Source: Methanobacteriota archaeon (GTDB lineage Archaea; Halobacteriota; Methanosarcinia; Methanosarcinales; Methanosarcinaceae). From it: DNA of 50,324 nucleotides. Below the pieces are notes generated by a model that was not told where the DNA came from, searched no databases, and saw only the letters and a list, made by a program, of their open reading frames with translations. Made by a program: the position numbers and the translations under genes. Of this stretch, positions 5,766 through 40,220 are shown one piece after another. The stretch covers positions 2,933 through 53,256 of the forward strand of contig JAENYU010000028.1 of NCBI GenBank assembly GCA_016841625.1, given 5' to 3'. Positions within the stretch are counted from its first letter, which is position 1. The number at the start of each line of letters is the position of its first letter.

Positions 5766-7070
5766 GTGTCTGACACAGTAGACATCTACGACGACAGAGG
5801 AAAACTGCTTGAGAGCAATGTCGACATTAAGTCTCTTGCTCCAACCAGAAATGCAGCAATTCAAAAAATCATCATGGACACCAAGAGGTCCGTTGCAGTA
5901 AACCTCGGAGGAATCCAGAACGCCCTTGCAACAGGCAAGATGGGTGGAAAGGGGCGCCAGATCCTTGGGCGCGGACTCAACTACGATCTCGTAGGCAACG
6001 CCGATGCAATTGCAGCAAAGGTTAAGGAATTAGTGCAGGTCGACGAAGGCGACGACACCAACGTAGGTGTCCTCAACGGCGGAAAGAACCTGCTTATCCA
6101 GGCCCCAACGGCAAGGATCCTTTCCGGTGCAGACTACATGTCCGCAACCACCGTTGGTGCAGCAGCAGTCACCCAGACCGTCATGGACATGTGCAATGTT
6201 GACATGTATGACGCTCCTATCGTCAAGTCCGCAATCTGGGGTAGCTACCCACAGACCATGGACCTCATGGGTGGAAACGTTGCAGGTATCCTCAACATCC
6301 CCCAGAACAACGAAGGTCTTGGATTCTCCCTGAGAAACATCATGGCAAACCACGTTGCAGCCATCACCAGCAGGTCAGCAATGAACTCTGCAGCCCTCTC
6401 CTCAATCTACGAGCAGGCGGGTATCTTTGAGATGGGTGGAGCAGTCGGTATGTTCGAGAGGCACCAGCTCCTCGGTCTTGCATGCCAGGGTCTTAACGCC
6501 AACAATGTAGTCTACGACACCGTAAAGGAAAACGGTAAGGACGGTACAATCGGTACTGTACTCCAGTCCATCGTCGGAAGAGCAATCGAAGACGGCGTAA
6601 TCTCCGTTGACAAGACCGCACCTTCCGGATACAACTTCTACAAGGCAAACGACGTCCCAATGTGGAACGCATACGCAGCAGCCGGTACCCTTGCAGCCAC
6701 TCTCGTGAACTGTGGTGCAGCTCGTGCAGCTCAGGGCGTATCCTCCACACTCCTGTACTTCAACGACATGATTGAGAAAGAGACAGGTCTCCCAGGCTGT
6801 GACTACGGTAAGGTACAGGGTGTCGCTGTCGGGTTCTCCTTCTTCAGTCACTCCATCTACGGCGGCGGTGGCCCCGGTGTCTTCAACGGTAACCACGTTG
6901 TAACCAGACACTCCAGAGGCTTTGCAATTCCGTGTGTATGTGCTGCAGTAGCCCTCGATGCAGGTACTCAGATGTTCACAATCGAAGCAACATCCGGCCT
7001 CATCGGAAACGTGTTCGGAACTATCGAGGAATTCAGCAGTCCGATCAAGGCAGTAGCAGGAGCGCTCTAA
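5766..7070 (+). CDS. mcrB: Methyl-coenzyme M reductase beta subunit
   Basis: Beta subunit of the (alpha-beta-gamma)2 nickel F430 enzyme that reduces methyl-coenzyme M with coenzyme B to methane, the last step of methanogenesis. The 434-aa length is the family norm and the sequence is collinear with known McrB throughout, including the Gly-rich [13 protein letters not shown] stretch near the active-site channel. The start is GTG at 5766, supported by aaggagga 8 bp upstream. First gene of mcrBDCGA; mcrD begins 25 bp after its stop. Codon use is strongly biased, as expected for one of the most abundant proteins in the cell. Confidence 0.98.
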
Positions 7071-7095
7071 ACAAACGATGTCAATAGGTCTAACG

Positions 7096-7593
7096 ATGTC
7101 AGACTCTGCTTCAAACACGGAAAATACTGTTCAGATCGAAATCTTTCCCAGGAGAATCCTTTCCCCTGAAACAGCTCAGAAACTTATGGGTGAGTTGTAC
7201 AAGGTTGAAGGGGTTATCCGCGTTATGGTCCAGGGCCAGAGGCTGCCTGAAAGGGTGACAGCCGGGCCAGGGACCGGGGAAAAGGTGGAACATCCTCTTA
7301 GAAAGCCTATCCAGATTGGAAATCAGGTTATTGACCTGAAGGTCAGTGTAGGCAGGATCCGGATGGAACTTTCAAATTCCGAAGCTAAGGAAAAGGTTCG
7401 GGAAGTATGTGAAAAGGTAATTCCGTTCCCCTTTGAATTCAGGGAAGGATTTTTCCTGAGGAGAAAGGCAACGGTAACTGACTACGTCAAACTTGGTCCT
7501 GATGCAGACCCCCTTATGCTTGGCATGGTGGATCCTAAAGCCAGGCCCGAAGACCGGATTGTCTTCATCGAAACGGAAGAAGAAGAAGAGTGA
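7096..7593 (+). CDS. mcrD: Methyl-coenzyme M reductase operon protein D
   Basis: Small accessory protein encoded inside mcr operons. It associates with the reductase but is not part of the purified active complex, and a role in assembly or activation is proposed. I take the ATG at 7096 (MSDSASNTEN), which matches the family N-terminus; an in-frame ATG at 7078 would add six residues. The 165-aa product ends in an acidic Glu run. Codon bias is visibly weaker than in mcrB, mcrG and mcrA, in keeping with lower expression from the same transcript. Confidence 0.95.
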   Translation: MSDSASNTENTVQIEIFPRRILSPETAQKLMGELYKVEGVIRVMVQGQRLPERVTAGPGTGEKVEHPLRKPIQIGNQVIDLKVSVGRIRMELSNSEAKEKVREVCEKVIPFPFEFREGFFLRRKATVTDYVKLGPDADPLMLGMVDPKARPEDRIVFIETEEEEE

Positions 7594-7600
7594 AATTGAT

Positions 7601-8221
7601 ATGATGATCGATCGGGAAACGCAGGTGGTGGACTGCCGGTGCGGCATGGGACTCGGTAAAGGTGGAGGACTCGCCCAGCGAGGAACTCTCTCTGAAGCCG
7701 GACGTGCCGACGTAGTTGCCATTGCGATGAGTCCCGGACAGAGGCATATCACAAAACCGGTCTGTGAGATTACATATGGAATGCGGAAGGAAAATATCCA
7801 GGTCAGTGTGCTTGTGCTCTATTCGGGTACGGGAATCCCGGAATCAGGCTTGAGGACGGGGTCCTTTGTAATGAACCCGGTAGAAGTGGCACAGGTTGAA
7901 ATGCACAAACTCGCAGTCATCCACCTTGGAAACATCAGGGACCATGTGGTTAGGAAGGCCAGGGAAATCCTGAGTCAGGCAAATATCCCGGCAATAGTTG
8001 TTAGCCAGATCCCGGTAGATTTCGAAGATTTTGCAGAAGCAGGGGTAAAGACAAGATTGGTGATGCCAAGGGACGAAAATATCCAGACAAAAGGAATTGT
8101 GATGGATATGGTAAGTGGAGTAACACGTGGAGACTCCTGCCCCAGGGATAAGCTAAATTTGATCGTTAAATACGTGAAGACAACATTAGACCAATTAGAA
8201 GATCATAAAGGAGTTGCATGA
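7601..8221 (+). CDS. mcrC: Methyl-coenzyme M reductase operon protein C
   Basis: McrC is a component of the ATP-dependent complex that reductively activates F430-Ni in methyl-coenzyme M reductase. The product is about 206 aa and carries the family Cys motif VDCRCGMGLGKGGG near the N-terminus, with further conserved Cys in KPVCEITYG and RGDSCPRD. The start is ATG 7601 or the adjacent ATG 7604; the frame stays open further upstream, but that part overlaps mcrD and does not match the family. Its stop overlaps the ribosome-site region of mcrG, one base before the mcrG ATG, suggesting translational coupling. Confidence 0.95.
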   Translation: MMIDRETQVVDCRCGMGLGKGGGLAQRGTLSEAGRADVVAIAMSPGQRHITKPVCEITYGMRKENIQVSVLVLYSGTGIPESGLRTGSFVMNPVEVAQVEMHKLAVIHLGNIRDHVVRKAREILSQANIPAIVVSQIPVDFEDFAEAGVKTRLVMPRDENIQTKGIVMDMVSGVTRGDSCPRDKLNLIVKYVKTTLDQLEDHKGVA

Positions 8222-26997: not shown

Positions 26998-28344
26998 ATG
27001 CTACTGGAATTCTCCGTTGAAAACTTTCTCTCCTTCAAAGACAGGGTTAGCCTCAGCCTTGACTCCAGTGCGAGCAAGAAGCTTCCCTGCAACCTCATAG
27101 AGGTCTCGGAAAAGGAGTGGTTGCTCAAGTCGGCTGTGGTTTACGGGGCAAATGCTTCCGGGAAGTCTAACCTTGTGAAGGCTCTCTTTTTCATGCGGAA
27201 CATGGTTGCGCATTCGCATAACTTCAATATTGACACGAGGATTCCCGTTACGCCTTTCAGGCTGAGTGGGGAGTGCCGGGAAAAGCCTTCCCGCTTCGAA
27301 CTCAAATTTGTTCATGAGGGGGTCAGGTACAGGTATGGTTTTTCCTGCGACAGAGAGCGGGTCATTGATGAGTACCTTTTCGAAAGGCCGGGGAAAAGGG
27401 AAAGGAGCGTCTTTACGCGGAAGAACAGCTCTGATAAAGACGGTTCTGAAAAAGGCAGCCTGGACTTTCACTTCCCCGTGGACAAAAAGCAGCAGGAGCT
27501 TATCAGTTCCCAGACCATAGAAAACACCCTCTACCTCTCACGGGCCACCCAGCTCGGGTATGAAAAAACCAGGCCTGTCTATGAGTTCTTTACCGGGAGC
27601 TTGCAGGTCAGCCTAATTCCTGGCTGGAAAAACTATACCCTTGAGCGGATGTACGCGGATGAAGCGTTCAAAGCAAGGATTGTTGAGGTGCTGAAAAAGG
27701 CTGACTTCGGAGGGATAGAGGAGATCACTGTCAAAAAGGAAAAAAGTCCTTCTCCAGGACCTGAATTCGTGTTCGAGCACTCCCCGACGGATTCTTTCAA
27801 AAGCTCCGGTCCTGCTGGCAGTCCTGTTGGCAGTTCTGCCGGTGGTTCTGTCGGTAGATCTGCTGTTGGCTCTGGGGAGACTTATGGTGGGGCTTATGGG
27901 GACTCTTACGAAGTAAGGACCATGCATAGGACAGAAAGCGGGGATACCGTATATTTTGACCTGAGCGAGGAATCCGAAGGTACCCAAAAAACTCTCATGC
28001 TCCTGGGGCCTCTTTTTGATGTCATGGACACGGGCGGGGTCCTCTTCATAGATGAACTTGAATCGAGCCTCCACCCGGAAATCACCCGGCTCCTGATCCG
28101 GCTCTTCAACAGCAAAAAGAACAGCAGGGCACAGCTGGTCTTCACCACCCATGACACGAACCTCCTTGACAACGAACTCTTCAGGCGGGACCAGATCTAC
28201 TTCTGTACGAAGGAGCCAAACAGGTATACAAAGCTTGCTTCCCTGCTCGACTTCGACATCAGGCAGGAGATTGATTTTGAGCGGGCTTACCTGACCGGCA
28301 GGGTCGGGGGGGTGCCGATCGTGGATGAAACGCTGCTTTATTGA
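26998..28344 (+). CDS. RloA-like AAA ATPase of a two-gene defence-type system
   Basis: 448 aa, ABC/SMC-like ATPase of the AAA_15 type found with RloB-like partners. Walker A is GANASGKS (50-57), an ABC-like signature is SEESEGTQK (about 323-331), Walker B is GVLFIDELE (347-355) and the switch histidine is in TTHD (383-386). Between about residues 262 and 306 there is a Ser/Gly-rich low-complexity insert built of degenerate GS-type repeats, which I would not expect in the family. The TOPRIM-like partner follows after 77 bp. Related pairs (AbiL, RloAB, PARIS) act against phage; that role here is inferred from the pairing. Confidence 0.85.
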   Translation: MLLEFSVENFLSFKDRVSLSLDSSASKKLPCNLIEVSEKEWLLKSAVVYGANASGKSNLVKALFFMRNMVAHSHNFNIDTRIPVTPFRLSGECREKPSRFELKFVHEGVRYRYGFSCDRERVIDEYLFERPGKRERSVFTRKNSSDKDGSEKGSLDFHFPVDKKQQELISSQTIENTLYLSRATQLGYEKTRPVYEFFTGSLQVSLIPGWKNYTLERMYADEAFKARIVEVLKKADFGGIEEITVKKEKSPSPGPEFVFEHSPTDSFKSSGPAGSPVGSSAGGSVGRSAVGSGETYGGAYGDSYEVRTMHRTESGDTVYFDLSEESEGTQKTLMLLGPLFDVMDTGGVLFIDELESSLHPEITRLLIRLFNSKKNSRAQLVFTTHDTNLLDNELFRRDQIYFCTKEPNRYTKLASLLDFDIRQEIDFERAYLTGRVGGVPIVDETLLY

Positions 28345-28421
28345 TAGTGCTTTATTGACAATAATTTGCTGGATTTATTCACTGAAAATTATTTATTGAT
28401 GGGGCAAGGGAAGGATAGATT

Positions 28422-29018
28422 ATGGTCAGGAGGAAAGGGAAAAAGCCTATAACAACCGCCTGGATCTTCTGTGAAGGCGAAAAAACGGAGTCTTACTACT
28501 TTAGCAAATTGAGGGCAGAGGAAAGGCTTGAAAGGTTGAGGATCAAGGTGCATTCTTCTGAAAATAAGGATCCTGTTGGCCTTGTGAATTACTCCGTCGA
28601 ATTCAAAAAACACAGAAGAGATTACCTGTCCGGTGATTTGATCTTCTGCGTTTTTGACAGGGATCAGAATTCAAACGCGGCACTTGCAAAAGCAAAGAAA
28701 ATTGCAGAGGAAAACGGCCTCTCCCTGATTTTCTCGAACCCCTGTTTTGAATACTGGATACTTTCGCATTTCGAATACTATCCGCAGGCGATAGAGCCGG
28801 ATCTGCTCAAAAGAAAACTGGATCGAAGCCTGGGGGAATACAGAAAAAACGACCCCCTGATCTACACAAAAACAAGGGGCATGATTGATGATGCAGTAAG
28901 CAATTCCAAACAAGTCCGTGAAAAGCACCTGGAATACGGTATGGAAATCCTGAGCAGGGAGAGCAATCCTTCTACCCTGGTTTTTGACTTGATAGAAAAA
29001 GTTAATGATTTCAGGTAG
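28422..29018 (+). CDS. RloB-like protein (TOPRIM-type)
   Basis: 198 aa. A TOPRIM-like core is visible: WIFCEGEKTE with E19, then LIFCVFDRDQ with D79 and D81. The family hallmark NPCFEYWILSHFEY (106-119) follows. The C-terminal half is helical and Lys-rich. gggaaggatag precedes the ATG at 28422. It is downstream of the ATPase on the same strand and presumably cotranscribed. By analogy with PARIS and AbiL it would be the toxic nuclease arm released or controlled by the ATPase. No antitoxin or immunity gene is evident. Confidence 0.83.
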   Translation: MVRRKGKKPITTAWIFCEGEKTESYYFSKLRAEERLERLRIKVHSSENKDPVGLVNYSVEFKKHRRDYLSGDLIFCVFDRDQNSNAALAKAKKIAEENGLSLIFSNPCFEYWILSHFEYYPQAIEPDLLKRKLDRSLGEYRKNDPLIYTKTRGMIDDAVSNSKQVREKHLEYGMEILSRESNPSTLVFDLIEKVNDFR

Positions 29019-29054: not shown

Positions 29055-29212
29055 TTGTCCCTATACGGGGGGACAAATAACCACTAAATAGGTTTCTTGT
29101 ACAAGACCAGAAATTGCCTAAATTGATCTCCTATGCAGGATCGAATTTTAATTAAATTGGTCCCCTATAAAAGACCAAATTTTAAGTAAAATGGTCTCCT
29201 ATAGAGGACCAT
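29055..29212 (+). promoter_or_regulatory. Array of five palindromes at an exact 34-bp spacing (operator-like)
   Basis: Dyad centres fall at 29065.5, 29099.5, 29133.5, 29167.5 and 29201.5. Arms: TTGTCC/GGACAA, GGT/ACC around cttgtacaag, GATC/GATC, TTGGTC/GACCAA and GGTC/GACC; the spacers are also alike (aaattttaa-taaat). A weaker sixth unit may sit near 29021-29040. The loop of unit 4 is a TATA-like tataaaa (29167-29172), and unit 5 overlaps the ATG of the next gene at 29211. The layout suggests a multi-site operator over a core promoter. Confidence 0.8.
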
Positions 29213-30491
29213 GCAAAAAAAGGAGCTTTTCAAATACCTTATAAAAGAGTTCCACGAAAAACAGCTCCCTGAACTCTACCTTCGCTCTCTTGAAATCCCG
29301 GAGACCCGGAAGATCGTAAGCCTCATTGGGGCCAGGCGGATTGGCAAGACCAGCTATTTTTACCAGGTCATAAAAAAGCTGGAAAAAAGTGTGGGCCGGG
29401 AGCGTATCCTTTACATAAACTTCGAGGATGAGAGGATTCTTCCCCTTGACGTTAAGGATCTGAACGATACTCTCGAAGCGTATTATGAACTGTATCCCGA
29501 AAATTTGGGCAATACGGTTTACCTCTTCTTTGATGAGATCCAGAACATTGAGGGCTGGGAGGTCTTTGTAAGAAGGATGTACGACAGGGGGGATCTCAGG
29601 CTTTTCCTTACGGGCTCGAGTTCGAAGATGCTCTCAAAAGAGCTTGCAACGAGTCTCCGGGGGCGAACCCTTGCGTTTTATCTTTATCCCCTGGACTTTC
29701 GGGAGTACCTTGCTTTCAGGGGGGTCGAACCTGTGAAAGACTTCGAGTATTCGAAACAGCGCTTCGAACTCAAGAAACTGTTTGAGGAGTACCTTTACGA
29801 AGGTGGTTTTCCCGAAGTTGTGCTCGAAGCCCCCGAAATCAGGCAAAAAATTTTGCAGGATTACTTTGAGATGATCATCTACAGAGACCTTGTGGAGCGC
29901 TTCTCCATACGAAACACGGGGCTTCTAAAAAACCTTACAAAATACCTGATCACAAATATAGGGAACCCTTTTAGCACAAACTCGTACTATAAAAGCATAA
30001 AACAGGAGCAAGCAGTCTCGAAAGCAACCCTTCTCGAATATGTTTCTCACCTGGAAGACATCAACCTTGTCTATTTCCTCCCCCTCTTTAGCTATTCGTT
30101 GAAAAAGCAGACCCTGAACCCTAAAAAGGTCTACTGCATAGACAATGGACTTCGGAATGCCGTATCCTTCACTTTCTCAAAAGACGAAGGCAGGCTTGCC
30201 GAAAACCTGGTCTTCCTCGAACTCATGCGCCGGGAAAAAGAAGTCTATTACTGGAAAACCCGGGGAGAAGTGGATTTCGTGGTTAAAGAAAAGGACAACT
30301 CCCTTTCAGCCATAAACGTCTCCTACACCGACAGTATCGAAGAAAGGGAAACCAGGGCGCTGGAAGAATTTTCCGAATCTGAAGAATTTGGGCCTCAAGT
30401 GAAAGACATGATCCTGCTAACAAGGGACACTGAAAAAAAGGAAAATGGGATAAGGTACATCCCGTTGTGGAAGTGGATGCTCGATAACTGA
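29211..30491 (+). CDS. AAA_14 / DUF4143 family ATPase
   Basis: 426 aa. The N-terminal P-loop domain has Walker A GARRIGKT (40-47) and Walker B VYLFFDEIQ (103-111), with the sensor LFLTGSSSKML following. The C-terminal DUF4143 region has a nuclease-like core, YYWKTRGEVDFVV, then AINVSY, reminiscent of a PD-(D/E)XK fold with E and D but no clear lysine. Such ATPases are common in archaea and their function is unknown. The start at ATG 29211 overlaps the last palindrome of the array, and no clear ribosome site precedes it. It sits between the RloAB-like pair and the Cys-rich membrane genes, on the same strand. Confidence 0.88.
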   Translation: MQKKELFKYLIKEFHEKQLPELYLRSLEIPETRKIVSLIGARRIGKTSYFYQVIKKLEKSVGRERILYINFEDERILPLDVKDLNDTLEAYYELYPENLGNTVYLFFDEIQNIEGWEVFVRRMYDRGDLRLFLTGSSSKMLSKELATSLRGRTLAFYLYPLDFREYLAFRGVEPVKDFEYSKQRFELKKLFEEYLYEGGFPEVVLEAPEIRQKILQDYFEMIIYRDLVERFSIRNTGLLKNLTKYLITNIGNPFSTNSYYKSIKQEQAVSKATLLEYVSHLEDINLVYFLPLFSYSLKKQTLNPKKVYCIDNGLRNAVSFTFSKDEGRLAENLVFLELMRREKEVYYWKTRGEVDFVVKEKDNSLSAINVSYTDSIEERETRALEEFSESEEFGPQVKDMILLTRDTEKKENGIRYIPLWKWMLDN

Positions 30492-30532
30492 ATCACAAGC
30501 TTTATACCTCTCCTCTCGCCAAAAATTCTCCC

Positions 30533-31054
30533 ATGTCTCCCTCAAACCCCCGAATCCCCCTCAAGGTGGAGCACTCCACAAAAGACCGCCTTTACTGGAA
30601 CTTCTTCAACATGATTCCTTTTCTCATCGGTTCCATAGCAATTGCAAGGGATTCGTTCAAATGGGTGGCAGTTTACATCGGTATAGCCCTCTTTTTCTTC
30701 CTGGTTATCGAATACCGTTTTGCCTGCACCCACTGCCTGTACTATATCCGGAGCAAAGGCTGCGTAAAATGCATGATGCTTCACGGGATGCCAAAACTCT
30801 TCAAAGCCAGGCCCGGGCCCCACAGCCCGTTTGAAAAGGCAGTTACTACAATTGGGGCTCTTCCCATGTTTCTTTTTCCGGTCTACTGGCTGGTAAGGGA
30901 CCCTTTGCTGCTCGGTGCCTATGGCGTTTCCTGGACTCTTTTCTTTTTGACGGCAAGGAGGTACGAGTGCATCCGCTGCATCAATTTCGAGTGCCCTATG
31001 AACAGGGTTCCGGCTGAGGTCAGGAAGGAGTTTGAGGAAAAAGAGGGCTTTTAA
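30533..31054 (+). CDS. Cys-rich four-helix membrane protein, twin 1
   Basis: 173 aa, no family recognised. Hydrophobic segments near residues 23-39, 43-62, 103-121 and 125-141. Cys sets follow helix 2 (C65, C68, C77, C80 in CTHC...CVKC) and helix 4 (C146, C149, C154). With the N-terminus inside, both sets would lie on the cytoplasmic face and could bind one metal or Fe-S centre. A TATA-like tttatacc (30501-30508) is about 28 bp before the ATG, so the message may be leaderless. A paralogue follows after 75 bp. The last 17 residues are identical in the two. Confidence 0.75.
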   Translation: MSPSNPRIPLKVEHSTKDRLYWNFFNMIPFLIGSIAIARDSFKWVAVYIGIALFFFLVIEYRFACTHCLYYIRSKGCVKCMMLHGMPKLFKARPGPHSPFEKAVTTIGALPMFLFPVYWLVRDPLLLGAYGVSWTLFFLTARRYECIRCINFECPMNRVPAEVRKEFEEKEGF

Positions 31055-31129
31055 GAAAGAAGGGCTTGTAGAAGAGAGGGCTTGTAGAAGAGAAGGCTTT
31101 TAAGAAAGAGAAGGCGTAAGGTTCCTTTT

Positions 31130-31669
31130 TTGCCGGAGAATGCTTTTATGTTAAACCCTGATTCAAATATCCCCCTAAAAACAGAACACGAATTTAAGGA
31201 CTTCCTTTACTGGAACTTCATAACCCTGGTCCTGTTATTTCCGGCAGCACTTGCAATCGGTATGAGTTCAACAGGGTGGTTGCTTGTCTACATTTTCCTG
31301 GTTTTTTTCCACTTCTATATCCTTGAGCAGCGTTTCTTCTGCACTCACTGTCCTTACTATGCCAGAGGCGGGAAATGTGTGAAGTGCATGATGAACTGGG
31401 GCTGTCCGAAATATTTCAAGCCGAGGCCGTGTCCCCCGAGCAGATTTGATATTGCGATAACGGCTCTTGGTTTCATTGTTGTTATTTTCTTCCCGCTTCC
31501 CTGGCTTTTGAAAGAGCCGTTCCTGCTGGGCGCTTACTCAGTTGCAATTGCGTTTTTCCTGCTGACCGTGAGGCGGTATGAGTGTGTACGCTGTGTTTAT
31601 TTCGGCTGCCCTTTTAACAGGGTTCCGGCTGAGGTCAGGAAGGAGTTTGAGGAAAAAGAGGGCTTTTAA
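31130..31669 (+). CDS. Cys-rich four-helix membrane protein, twin 2
   Basis: 179 aa, paralogue of the preceding gene with the same four-helix plan and Cys sets: C71, C74, C83 and C86 after helix 2, C152, C155 and C160 after helix 4, plus extra C92 and C101. The start taken is TTG 31130; in-frame ATG 31148 (MLNPDSNIPLK) aligns better with the N-terminus of twin 1 and is likely the true start. The final 50-55 bp of coding DNA are identical to twin 1, pointing to recent gene conversion. Metal binding is inferred. Function unknown. Confidence 0.75.
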   Translation: MPENAFMLNPDSNIPLKTEHEFKDFLYWNFITLVLLFPAALAIGMSSTGWLLVYIFLVFFHFYILEQRFFCTHCPYYARGGKCVKCMMNWGCPKYFKPRPCPPSRFDIAITALGFIVVIFFPLPWLLKEPFLLGAYSVAIAFFLLTVRRYECVRCVYFGCPFNRVPAEVRKEFEEKEGF

Positions 31670-38594: not shown

Positions 38595-40028
38595 ATGGCT
38601 CTGAAACCCAGAATTGCGGAATCTCCCCCGGTTCGTTTACTTGACCTGAAGTCAAAGCCTTTCTTCATCGTGGCTTCCCTGGAAGTCGGAAATACCACCA
38701 CGAAATGTATCCTGACCGCCACCAATATGGACACCGGCAGGACCCATATTATCAACAAGGTCGTGAAAATGACCAGGGATGTCCGGGGACCTAAACCCGG
38801 GGAAGTGGTTTTCGGAAGGACGCTTACGGGTGTGGAACTTACCCGGGAATCAATTTCGGAAATAGTGCGCAATACCCTGGTCGAGTCCATGGAAATTGCC
38901 AACCTGGATATCAAGACCGACCTGAACTTCGTGGTCCGGTCTACGGGTGTGGTTGCGGGTTTTGACTCTCCCGATGAGGTGGGGGAGTTTATCAGGGCTC
39001 TTGCAGACGGCTGCCTCATAGCTGGCGTTCCGCCGAAAAACATGACTCCTCCCATGTCCATCTCCAATATCCCGAAAAAGTTCCAGAAATTCAGCAAGCT
39101 GGAAAAAGTGGTCTTTGATGGTGCCGTTGCCGGAGTCGTGCCCCCTATCGGCTCCACAGGGGTCGAAATAGTTGCTAATGAAATGGAAGGGGAACTTGCA
39201 ATGGCAGGGATCAAGGAAGCTGCCAAGTTAACGGACGTGGATTTCAGGAATCCGGGCATCTCCATTGACTTCGGGACTACCCTGGACGGAAGGATCACGA
39301 GTCCTGAACTGCCCTACGCAAAGACCATCGGAAACTTCTGTGGGTTTGCAGGGGCAATCCCTGACGCCATAATCCGGGGCTCAAGAGTGGTGGACTATAA
39401 AATGGGAACTGCACTTGATGTCCTGAAAGACGAAAAGTCTCCCTCCTTCCTGACCCTGAAAATGAAAGCCAAAGTGATAGAGGAGTACGCAAAGAGGATT
39501 CACGAACTTATCATTATAGAAAAAGTCCCGGAACATAGAACACGTTACGGAAGTGTACCCGTGAGTTCCGAAGGGGCTAAAGAAGTGGGGGTCGTGCTCA
39601 TTGGCTGCGATGTCGGAGAAAACGGGTCCGATATGGGGAAACTGAGCGCAATCGGTATGGAAATCTGCAAGAAATACGGGGTCTCGGTCATCTCGGCTGT
39701 CATTGACGAGGTTATGGCAGGTGTCGTTTGCAGGCTGGTTAAAGTTGCAAAAGATGAAGGTCTGGTCTTTGAGGACAGCACCATCGGGATCACAGGCAGG
39801 GCTGGAATCACCGGGAACAAGCCAAAAATAATCCTTAAGTGCCTGGACGAAATGGACATTGCTCCGAAAATCGATGAGCGCGTGGTCTTCGTAGACGACG
39901 GGCTTGCCCGGGGTGCGGCTGTCATGGCCCGCTGCATGAACTCCCTTGGCACGCCCCAGCACCCGCTCGGAGGCAGGCACGGCGGAAAGTGTATCCTCGC
40001 CCAGAGGATAAAACTGCAAAACAAGTAA
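38595..40028 (+). CDS. mmp14: Putative methanogenesis marker protein 14
   Basis: 477 aa from ATG 38595 (MALKPRIAES), with aaggaat 8 bp upstream; an in-frame ATG at 38568 lacks such a site. Found almost only in methanogens. The sequence SLEVGNTTTKCILTATN near the N-terminus and SIDFGTTLDGRI in the middle look like the phosphate loops of the ASKHA (actin-like) fold, as in activases of corrinoid proteins, so an ATP-dependent activator role is possible but unproven. The 3' end of the gene is amplified as a 15-bp tandem repeat that carries the stop codon. Confidence 0.85.
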   Translation: MALKPRIAESPPVRLLDLKSKPFFIVASLEVGNTTTKCILTATNMDTGRTHIINKVVKMTRDVRGPKPGEVVFGRTLTGVELTRESISEIVRNTLVESMEIANLDIKTDLNFVVRSTGVVAGFDSPDEVGEFIRALADGCLIAGVPPKNMTPPMSISNIPKKFQKFSKLEKVVFDGAVAGVVPPIGSTGVEIVANEMEGELAMAGIKEAAKLTDVDFRNPGISIDFGTTLDGRITSPELPYAKTIGNFCGFAGAIPDAIIRGSRVVDYKMGTALDVLKDEKSPSFLTLKMKAKVIEEYAKRIHELIIIEKVPEHRTRYGSVPVSSEGAKEVGVVLIGCDVGENGSDMGKLSAIGMEICKKYGVSVISAVIDEVMAGVVCRLVKVAKDEGLVFEDSTIGITGRAGITGNKPKIILKCLDEMDIAPKIDERVVFVDDGLARGAAVMARCMNSLGTPQHPLGGRHGGKCILAQRIKLQNK

Positions 40029-40161
40029 CTGCAAAACAAGTAACTGCAAAACAAGTAACTGCAAAACAAGTAACTGCAAAACAAATAACCACAAAACAAA
40101 TAACCACAAAACAAATAACCACAAAACAAGTAACTGCAAAACAAATAACCACAAAACAAAT
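40012..40161. repeat. 15-bp tandem repeat copying the mmp14 gene end, ten copies
   Basis: Ten units of aactgcaaaacaagt or its variant aaccacaaaacaaat in exact 15-bp steps, with a partial eleventh. The first unit is the last codons of mmp14 (LQNK), and the TAA stop lies at the join with the second. The variants alternate in blocks, showing expansion after divergence. Confidence 0.96.
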
Positions 40162-40220
40162 AACCACTAATAATTTTCGAAATTTTTAAAAAAAGAATTG
40201 AAATGAAGAGGGCTGGAAAA

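Follow-up and report, generated by a model that had tools for sequence, protein, structure and literature searches.

A regularly spaced array of five palindromes leads up to the start codon of a gene for an AAA_14-DUF4143 ATPase in the 50,324-nucleotide stretch of Methanosarcinaceae DNA analysed here (the window). The same geometry, with dyads placed 32-34 bp apart over the predicted core promoter, recurs in many phyla in front of AAA_14 genes, where the dyads are spelled differently. We consider it rather probable that the array is a cis-encoded operator, cooperatively bound by the encoded ATPase itself in a circuit of autorepression.

The palindromic array

The dyads are centred at 29065.5, 29099.5, 29133.5, 29167.5 and 29201.5, i.e. 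exactly 34 bp apart, and the array as a whole covers 29056-29211 (Table 1). Units 1-5 pair at 7, 5, 6, 8 and 9 of 12, respectively, where the window averages 3.0 (sd 1.5), and the resulting five-dyad sum of 35 is the highest at period 34 and the joint highest across periods 20-60 in the whole 50-kb window. None of 5000 shuffles of the 176-bp region equalled this sum (P about 2e-4), and Tandem Repeats Finder, which is independent of the dyad scoring, reported a period of 34 at 29119-29211. The locus consensus is TGGTCT NN TATA NN AGACCA, with a spacer of 14 bp. Units 1, 4 and 5 are strong dyads and unit 3 is moderate, while unit 2 is weak, being a poor palindrome by itself that owes its place in the array to its register. 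The array is real, and the decisive support for it is comparative: the five dyads locked at 34-bp spacing that the earlier note had described are confirmed by the pairing scores, the shuffles and recurrence in 11 other genomes. Elsewhere in the window (40012-40164) there is a 15-bp tandem repeat, AACTGCAAAACAAAT, with ten copies matching at 93%.

Table 1. Features of the array and the adjoining gene, in window coordinates
Feature	Position	Strand	Basis or remark
Dyad unit 1, TGTCCCTATACGGGGGGACA	29056..29075		Outer arm pairs 6/6
Dyad unit 2, AGGTTTCTTGTACAAGACCA	29090..29109		Weak dyad, 13/16 to consensus, 34-bp register kept
Dyad unit 3, TGATCTCCTATGCAGGATCG	29124..29143		Dyad and register scoring
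Dyad unit 4, TGGTCCCCTATAAAAGACCA	29158..29177		15/16 to consensus TGGTCTNNTATANNAGACCA
AT-rich spacer AATTTTAAGTAAAA separating unit 4 from unit 5, inferred site of the TATA box	29178..29191	+	Best TATA matches of archaeal relatives cluster there
Dyad unit 5, TGGTCTCCTATAGAGGACCA	29192..29211		Ends on the A of the ATG
AAA_14-DUF4143 ATPase (PDC-S01), putative array binder	29211..30491	+	Pfam, PADLOC, AlphaFold2

Conservation at the orthologous locus

BLAST and pattern searches of 112 genomes of the Methanosarcinaceae recovered the array in 11 other genomes from two genera, at one syntenic place in each, with 1-4 recognisable units. The 34-bp step is kept in every genome with two or more legible units. 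The comparison upstream of orthologues that had been called for thus shows both dyads and spacing to be conserved in relatives, the opposite of the outcome that would have counted against the array. The gene order at the locus is HtpX, a DHFR-like gene, RloAB (variably present), the array, AAA_14 (variably present) and two CxxC genes. AAA_14 is complete at the locus in four genomes (G000, G083, G094 and G099), with its ATG always where the last dyad ends, and survives in G074 as a remnant missing its first 141-149 residues. The latter sequence (L083, 7747-8700) displays an intact array and the first codons of AAA_14, followed by a deletion extending to about residue 142-150 and then by stops in the remainder.

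The array is not always accompanied by the gene: seven genomes (G001, G002, G003, G080, G081, G084 and G097) lack AAA_14 at the locus and retain the array, which in them lies directly upstream of the first CxxC gene. No orthologue was found in trans in these seven genomes, the copies elsewhere being paralogues of at most 49% identity. In array copies with no intact gene downstream, conservation is 0.96 in the arms versus 0.61 in the spacers, values biased upward by the selection of units on similarity. In G001 a transposase-bearing element (gene at 6412-8049) splits the array (L078, 6254-6313 and 8246-8299); the units to the left of the element have decayed, and the two on its right, beside the CxxC gene, are perfect. 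The main loose end is therefore an array with conserved dyad arms that outlives the ATPase gene in seven related genomes. These orphan arrays may be recent relics, may have been homogenised by gene conversion, may be bound by another factor, or may have been co-opted for the CxxC gene.

The neighbouring genes have distributions of their own. The RloAB-like pair (window 26998-29018), which matches the PADLOC profiles AbiLi (3.5e-92) and AbiLii (5e-25), is found at the locus only in the four genomes of genus g1 and is absent there from the g13 genomes; it is a candidate for a second defence insertion in the same gap. This AbiL-like pair was rejected as the partner of the array, given that several genomes have the array without RloAB. 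The window region 30533-31669 encodes two tandem, related, small CxxC-rich proteins, probably of the membrane, the first of which (30533) has no match in Pfam, NCBIfam or PADLOC.

Constant geometry and private letters

The genome containing the window has seven DUF4143 genes above the Pfam cut-off. At least six paralogue groups of the Methanosarcinaceae keep a step of 32-34 bp with palindromes unrelated to one another, such as CATTATAATG (33 bp), TCGTCTATACACGA (32 bp), TTACCGATATAAATGATAA (33 bp), TATGCTAATCAGGATTAGCATA (33 bp) and CTCATTCTAAATGAG (33 bp); three further groups have one dyad at most. Genome-wide pattern searches with three motifs, that of the window and those of two paralogue groups, gave essentially no match away from the home locus of each. 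The more alike two proteins are, the more alike are their operators (Mantel P 0.004); the winged helix adds no significant prediction of the operator letters to that given by the AAA domain (partial Mantel P 0.054).

The wider survey drew on 84,980 species genomes and took from them 80 relatives of the protein, 77 of which had enough upstream DNA; their contigs include ANME-2, DPANN, Thermoplasmatales, Chlorobiaceae, Geobacter, Aquificota, Sulfurimonas and Bacteroidota. The best dyad pair in each region was scored on the likeness of its four half-sites at spacings of 24-46 bp, with 243 regions upstream of other genes on the same contigs serving as controls. This score was chosen over plain dyad counting without letter agreement, which is weaker (34% versus 7% at high score). 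The median score was 36.2 in the 77 AAA_14 upstream regions versus 25.7 in controls (P 8e-22), units 4 and 5 of the window array scoring 57, and the best spacing fell at 32-34 bp in 61 of 77 as against 33 of 243 (P 1e-26). After dereplication to one protein per 60%-identity cluster, 26 of 38 remained at this spacing (P 6e-12). A remoter set from DUF4143 genes and viral contigs, limited by uncertain start codons, is weaker but still enriched (15/46, P 0.003). The dyads themselves differ widely in their letters: Aquificota have TTTCCTT...AAGGAAA, Geobacter has TTTTCCTT...AAGGAAAA, and contigs that carry the label Chryseobacterium have TTTCGT...ACGAAA. Other DUF4143 genes of the phylum (L254 and L255) are preceded by palindromes whose steps differ (the best score being at 46 bp), from which it appears that the spacing may differ by subfamily.

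Position of the dyads on the core promoter

Promoter positions were taken from consensus matches aligned on the downstream dyad. The two gene-proximal dyads bracket the predicted core promoter, with the TATA or -10 element in the spacer, the -35 element in the upstream dyad and the start region in the downstream dyad. Specifically, bacterial TATAAT matches peak 9-16 bp upstream of the downstream dyad, which is within the spacer (for example in Geobacter sp.), TTGACA matches include a peak inside the upstream dyad, and archaeal TATA matches peak in the spacer. The centre of the downstream dyad falls near +2 at many bacterial loci, making the start codon part of the putative operator. This placement of dyads over predicted promoter elements and start codon suggests the layout of a repressor operator.

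Two details of the original description bear on this layout. The contact of the start codon with unit 5 is borne out, and the TATA-like box, which had been assigned to the inside of unit 4, is to be relocated to the spacer between the last two dyads, the position seen in the family (here 29178-29191). This places the predicted TATA box downstream of four of the five window units. The proposal of cooperative operator DNA over the AAA_14 promoter appears to be supported, at the level of sequence, by the conserved dyads and spacing, the multi-phylum geometry and the promoter elements between the dyads.

Domain architecture of the ATPase

The encoded protein is a clear member of PDC-S01 by its domains and profile: it matches Pfam AAA_14 (PF13173; 6e-37, 126.9 bits, cut-off 27) and DUF4143 (PF13635; 1e-24, 87.6 bits, cut-off 28.1), and the PADLOC PDC-S01 profile PDLC04787 (8.8e-115). 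Its orthologue in Methanosarcina sp. DH2 shares 83% identity with it. The AlphaFold2 model (pLDDT 92) contains an AAA+ domain at about 1-205, a helical linker, a winged helix at about 233-310 and a putatively PD-(D/E)XK-like domain at about 312-426. We read the second of these domains as a winged helix from the order of its predicted helices (236-248, 256-263 and 271-283) and strands. The C-terminal region (312-426) adopts an alpha/beta fold in the model, with E331 and D355 invariant, and as modelled would fit the PD-(D/E)XK fold reported for PDC-S01 (PMC12988326). A sequence search of the PDB with the ATPase returned no match; the best PDB matches from Foldseek were DNA-bound Orc1/Cdc6 proteins, which combine an AAA+ domain with a winged helix.

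PDC-S01, a candidate defence system, is reported to combine an ATPase with PD-(D/E)XK and to rank fourth in frequency among the defences of prokaryotes; one survey counted 9986 copies in archaea and 29494 in bacteria, and validation of most PDC systems is pending (PMC12988326). In Thermus, the AAA_14, DUF4143 gene TT_P0211 was up 6.6-fold in plasmid-bearing, Argonaute-positive cells (PMC4406477), a rise that hints at inducibility.

A potential mechanism of autoregulation and its alternatives

Under the autorepression that we favour, each 20-bp dyad would be the site for a single dimer of a winged-helix protein, for which the encoded ATPase is the likeliest candidate, and the constant step of 32-34 bp (about 3.1-3.2 helical turns) would allow neighbouring dimers to touch and hence to bind cooperatively. 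Filling of the two gene-proximal dyads would cover the core promoter and start region and turn the gene off, with the extra upstream units (2-5 in the Methanosarcinaceae) adding cooperativity. As the letters change between paralogues at a constant geometry, each ATPase would possess a private address and would not silence its sisters; release might follow from an altered nucleotide or ligand state of the ATPase, e.g. upon phage or plasmid entry. The identity of the binding protein, repression, cooperativity and the inducing signal are all points that we infer. Autoregulation is the most economical reading because only the ATPase gene travels with each private operator and its product has a predicted DNA-binding fold. 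Several observations count against this picture: 34 bp is a non-integral number of helical turns, the partial Mantel test does not single out the winged helix, and three paralogue groups have at most one dyad. Certainty is further lowered by the persistence of the orphan arrays, which simple autoregulation does not explain.

Those orphan arrays, with their conserved arms directly upstream of the CxxC gene, speak for a separate trans-acting transcription factor that would regulate AAA_14 and, in genomes lacking it, either the CxxC gene (30533) or the DHFR-like gene. We regard such a factor as unlikely: none is evident beside the window gene, the motifs searched are essentially without further genomic sites, and the architecture follows AAA_14 genes across phyla. 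Moreover, the distinct dyad of each paralogue group would call for many private factors, i.e. one unlinked repressor per paralogue, which makes autoregulation the more economical solution. The same variable presence of the gene beside a lasting array is also compatible with the dyads being a substrate as well as an operator, onto which the ATPase would load so that its PD-(D/E)XK-like end or a partner could act there in copy control, self-recognition or cassette mobility. The PD-(D/E)XK fusion reported for the family, the alpha/beta C-terminal domain of the model and the Orc1/Cdc6-like architecture agree with this; the precise location of the dyads on the predicted core promoter and the lack of a dyad copy beyond the end of the gene (30491-30533) do not, and we consider it distinctly improbable.

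A structured RNA leader, in which the dyads would be transcript hairpins, had been offered as the alternative to an operator. As RNA, 167 nt of the region fold at -46.6 kcal/mol (z -4.0), but any palindromic DNA array folds well as RNA, and hairpins do not need a fixed step of 32-34 bp. The relocated TATA box also makes a leader less likely, since TATA/-10 signals in the last spacer put most units ahead of the predicted start; overall we hold it to be very unlikely. Mismatches in the arms (G-U as against A-C) occurred in numbers too small to tell an RNA function from a DNA function. The neighbouring spacers are partly alike, suggesting that the units probably arose by duplication, and this much would also be expected of a chance or slippage-derived minisatellite devoid of binding function. 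A minisatellite of that kind is scarcely credible when the arms are more conserved than the spacers and the same geometry recurs elsewhere in unrelated letters, with strong enrichment over controls. A CRISPR array was rejected, as the stretches between dyads are partly alike both within and between genomes.

Returning to autoregulation, its extension to the whole family is a tentative and somewhat doubtful proposition. PDC-S01 ATPases could be self-addressed switches, acting as cooperative, nucleotide-gated repressors on private arrays, with phage or plasmid DNA derepressing the gene and freeing an active nuclease-like ATPase, and with new specificities emerging through co-evolution of winged helix and operator at a fixed 32-34 bp.

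Relationship to known systems

In the literature, which was covered in part, we found no published description of a promoter operator or autoregulation for PDC-S01 (AAA_14-DUF4143), and nothing on its action or binding target. A putative family-wide operator of fixed geometry with paralogue-specific letters is a first candidate DNA target for PDC-S01. Its layout offers a handle on the regulation and inducer of these systems, and dozens of natural ATPase-operator pairs are available for working out specificity.

Two known systems invite comparison. The ATPase shares with Orc1/Cdc6 bound to origin recognition boxes the combination of AAA+ and winged helix and the putative use of repeated sites. 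However, full-length TM-scores are only about 0.3 at 11-13% identity, the ATPase has an extra C-terminal domain, and the array sites are at its own gene's promoter; with Pfam assigning AAA_14 and DUF4143, it was not placed in Orc1/Cdc6, the likeness being one of fold alone. The second system is that of the WYL-domain regulators (PMC9122601), in which inverted repeats likewise overlie a promoter, that of a gene associated with defence. As portrayed there, these regulators are dedicated repressors of defence islands, whereas the putative repressor in the present case is the ATPase itself; here, in addition, the spacing is locked at 32-34 bp and the letters diverge between paralogues.
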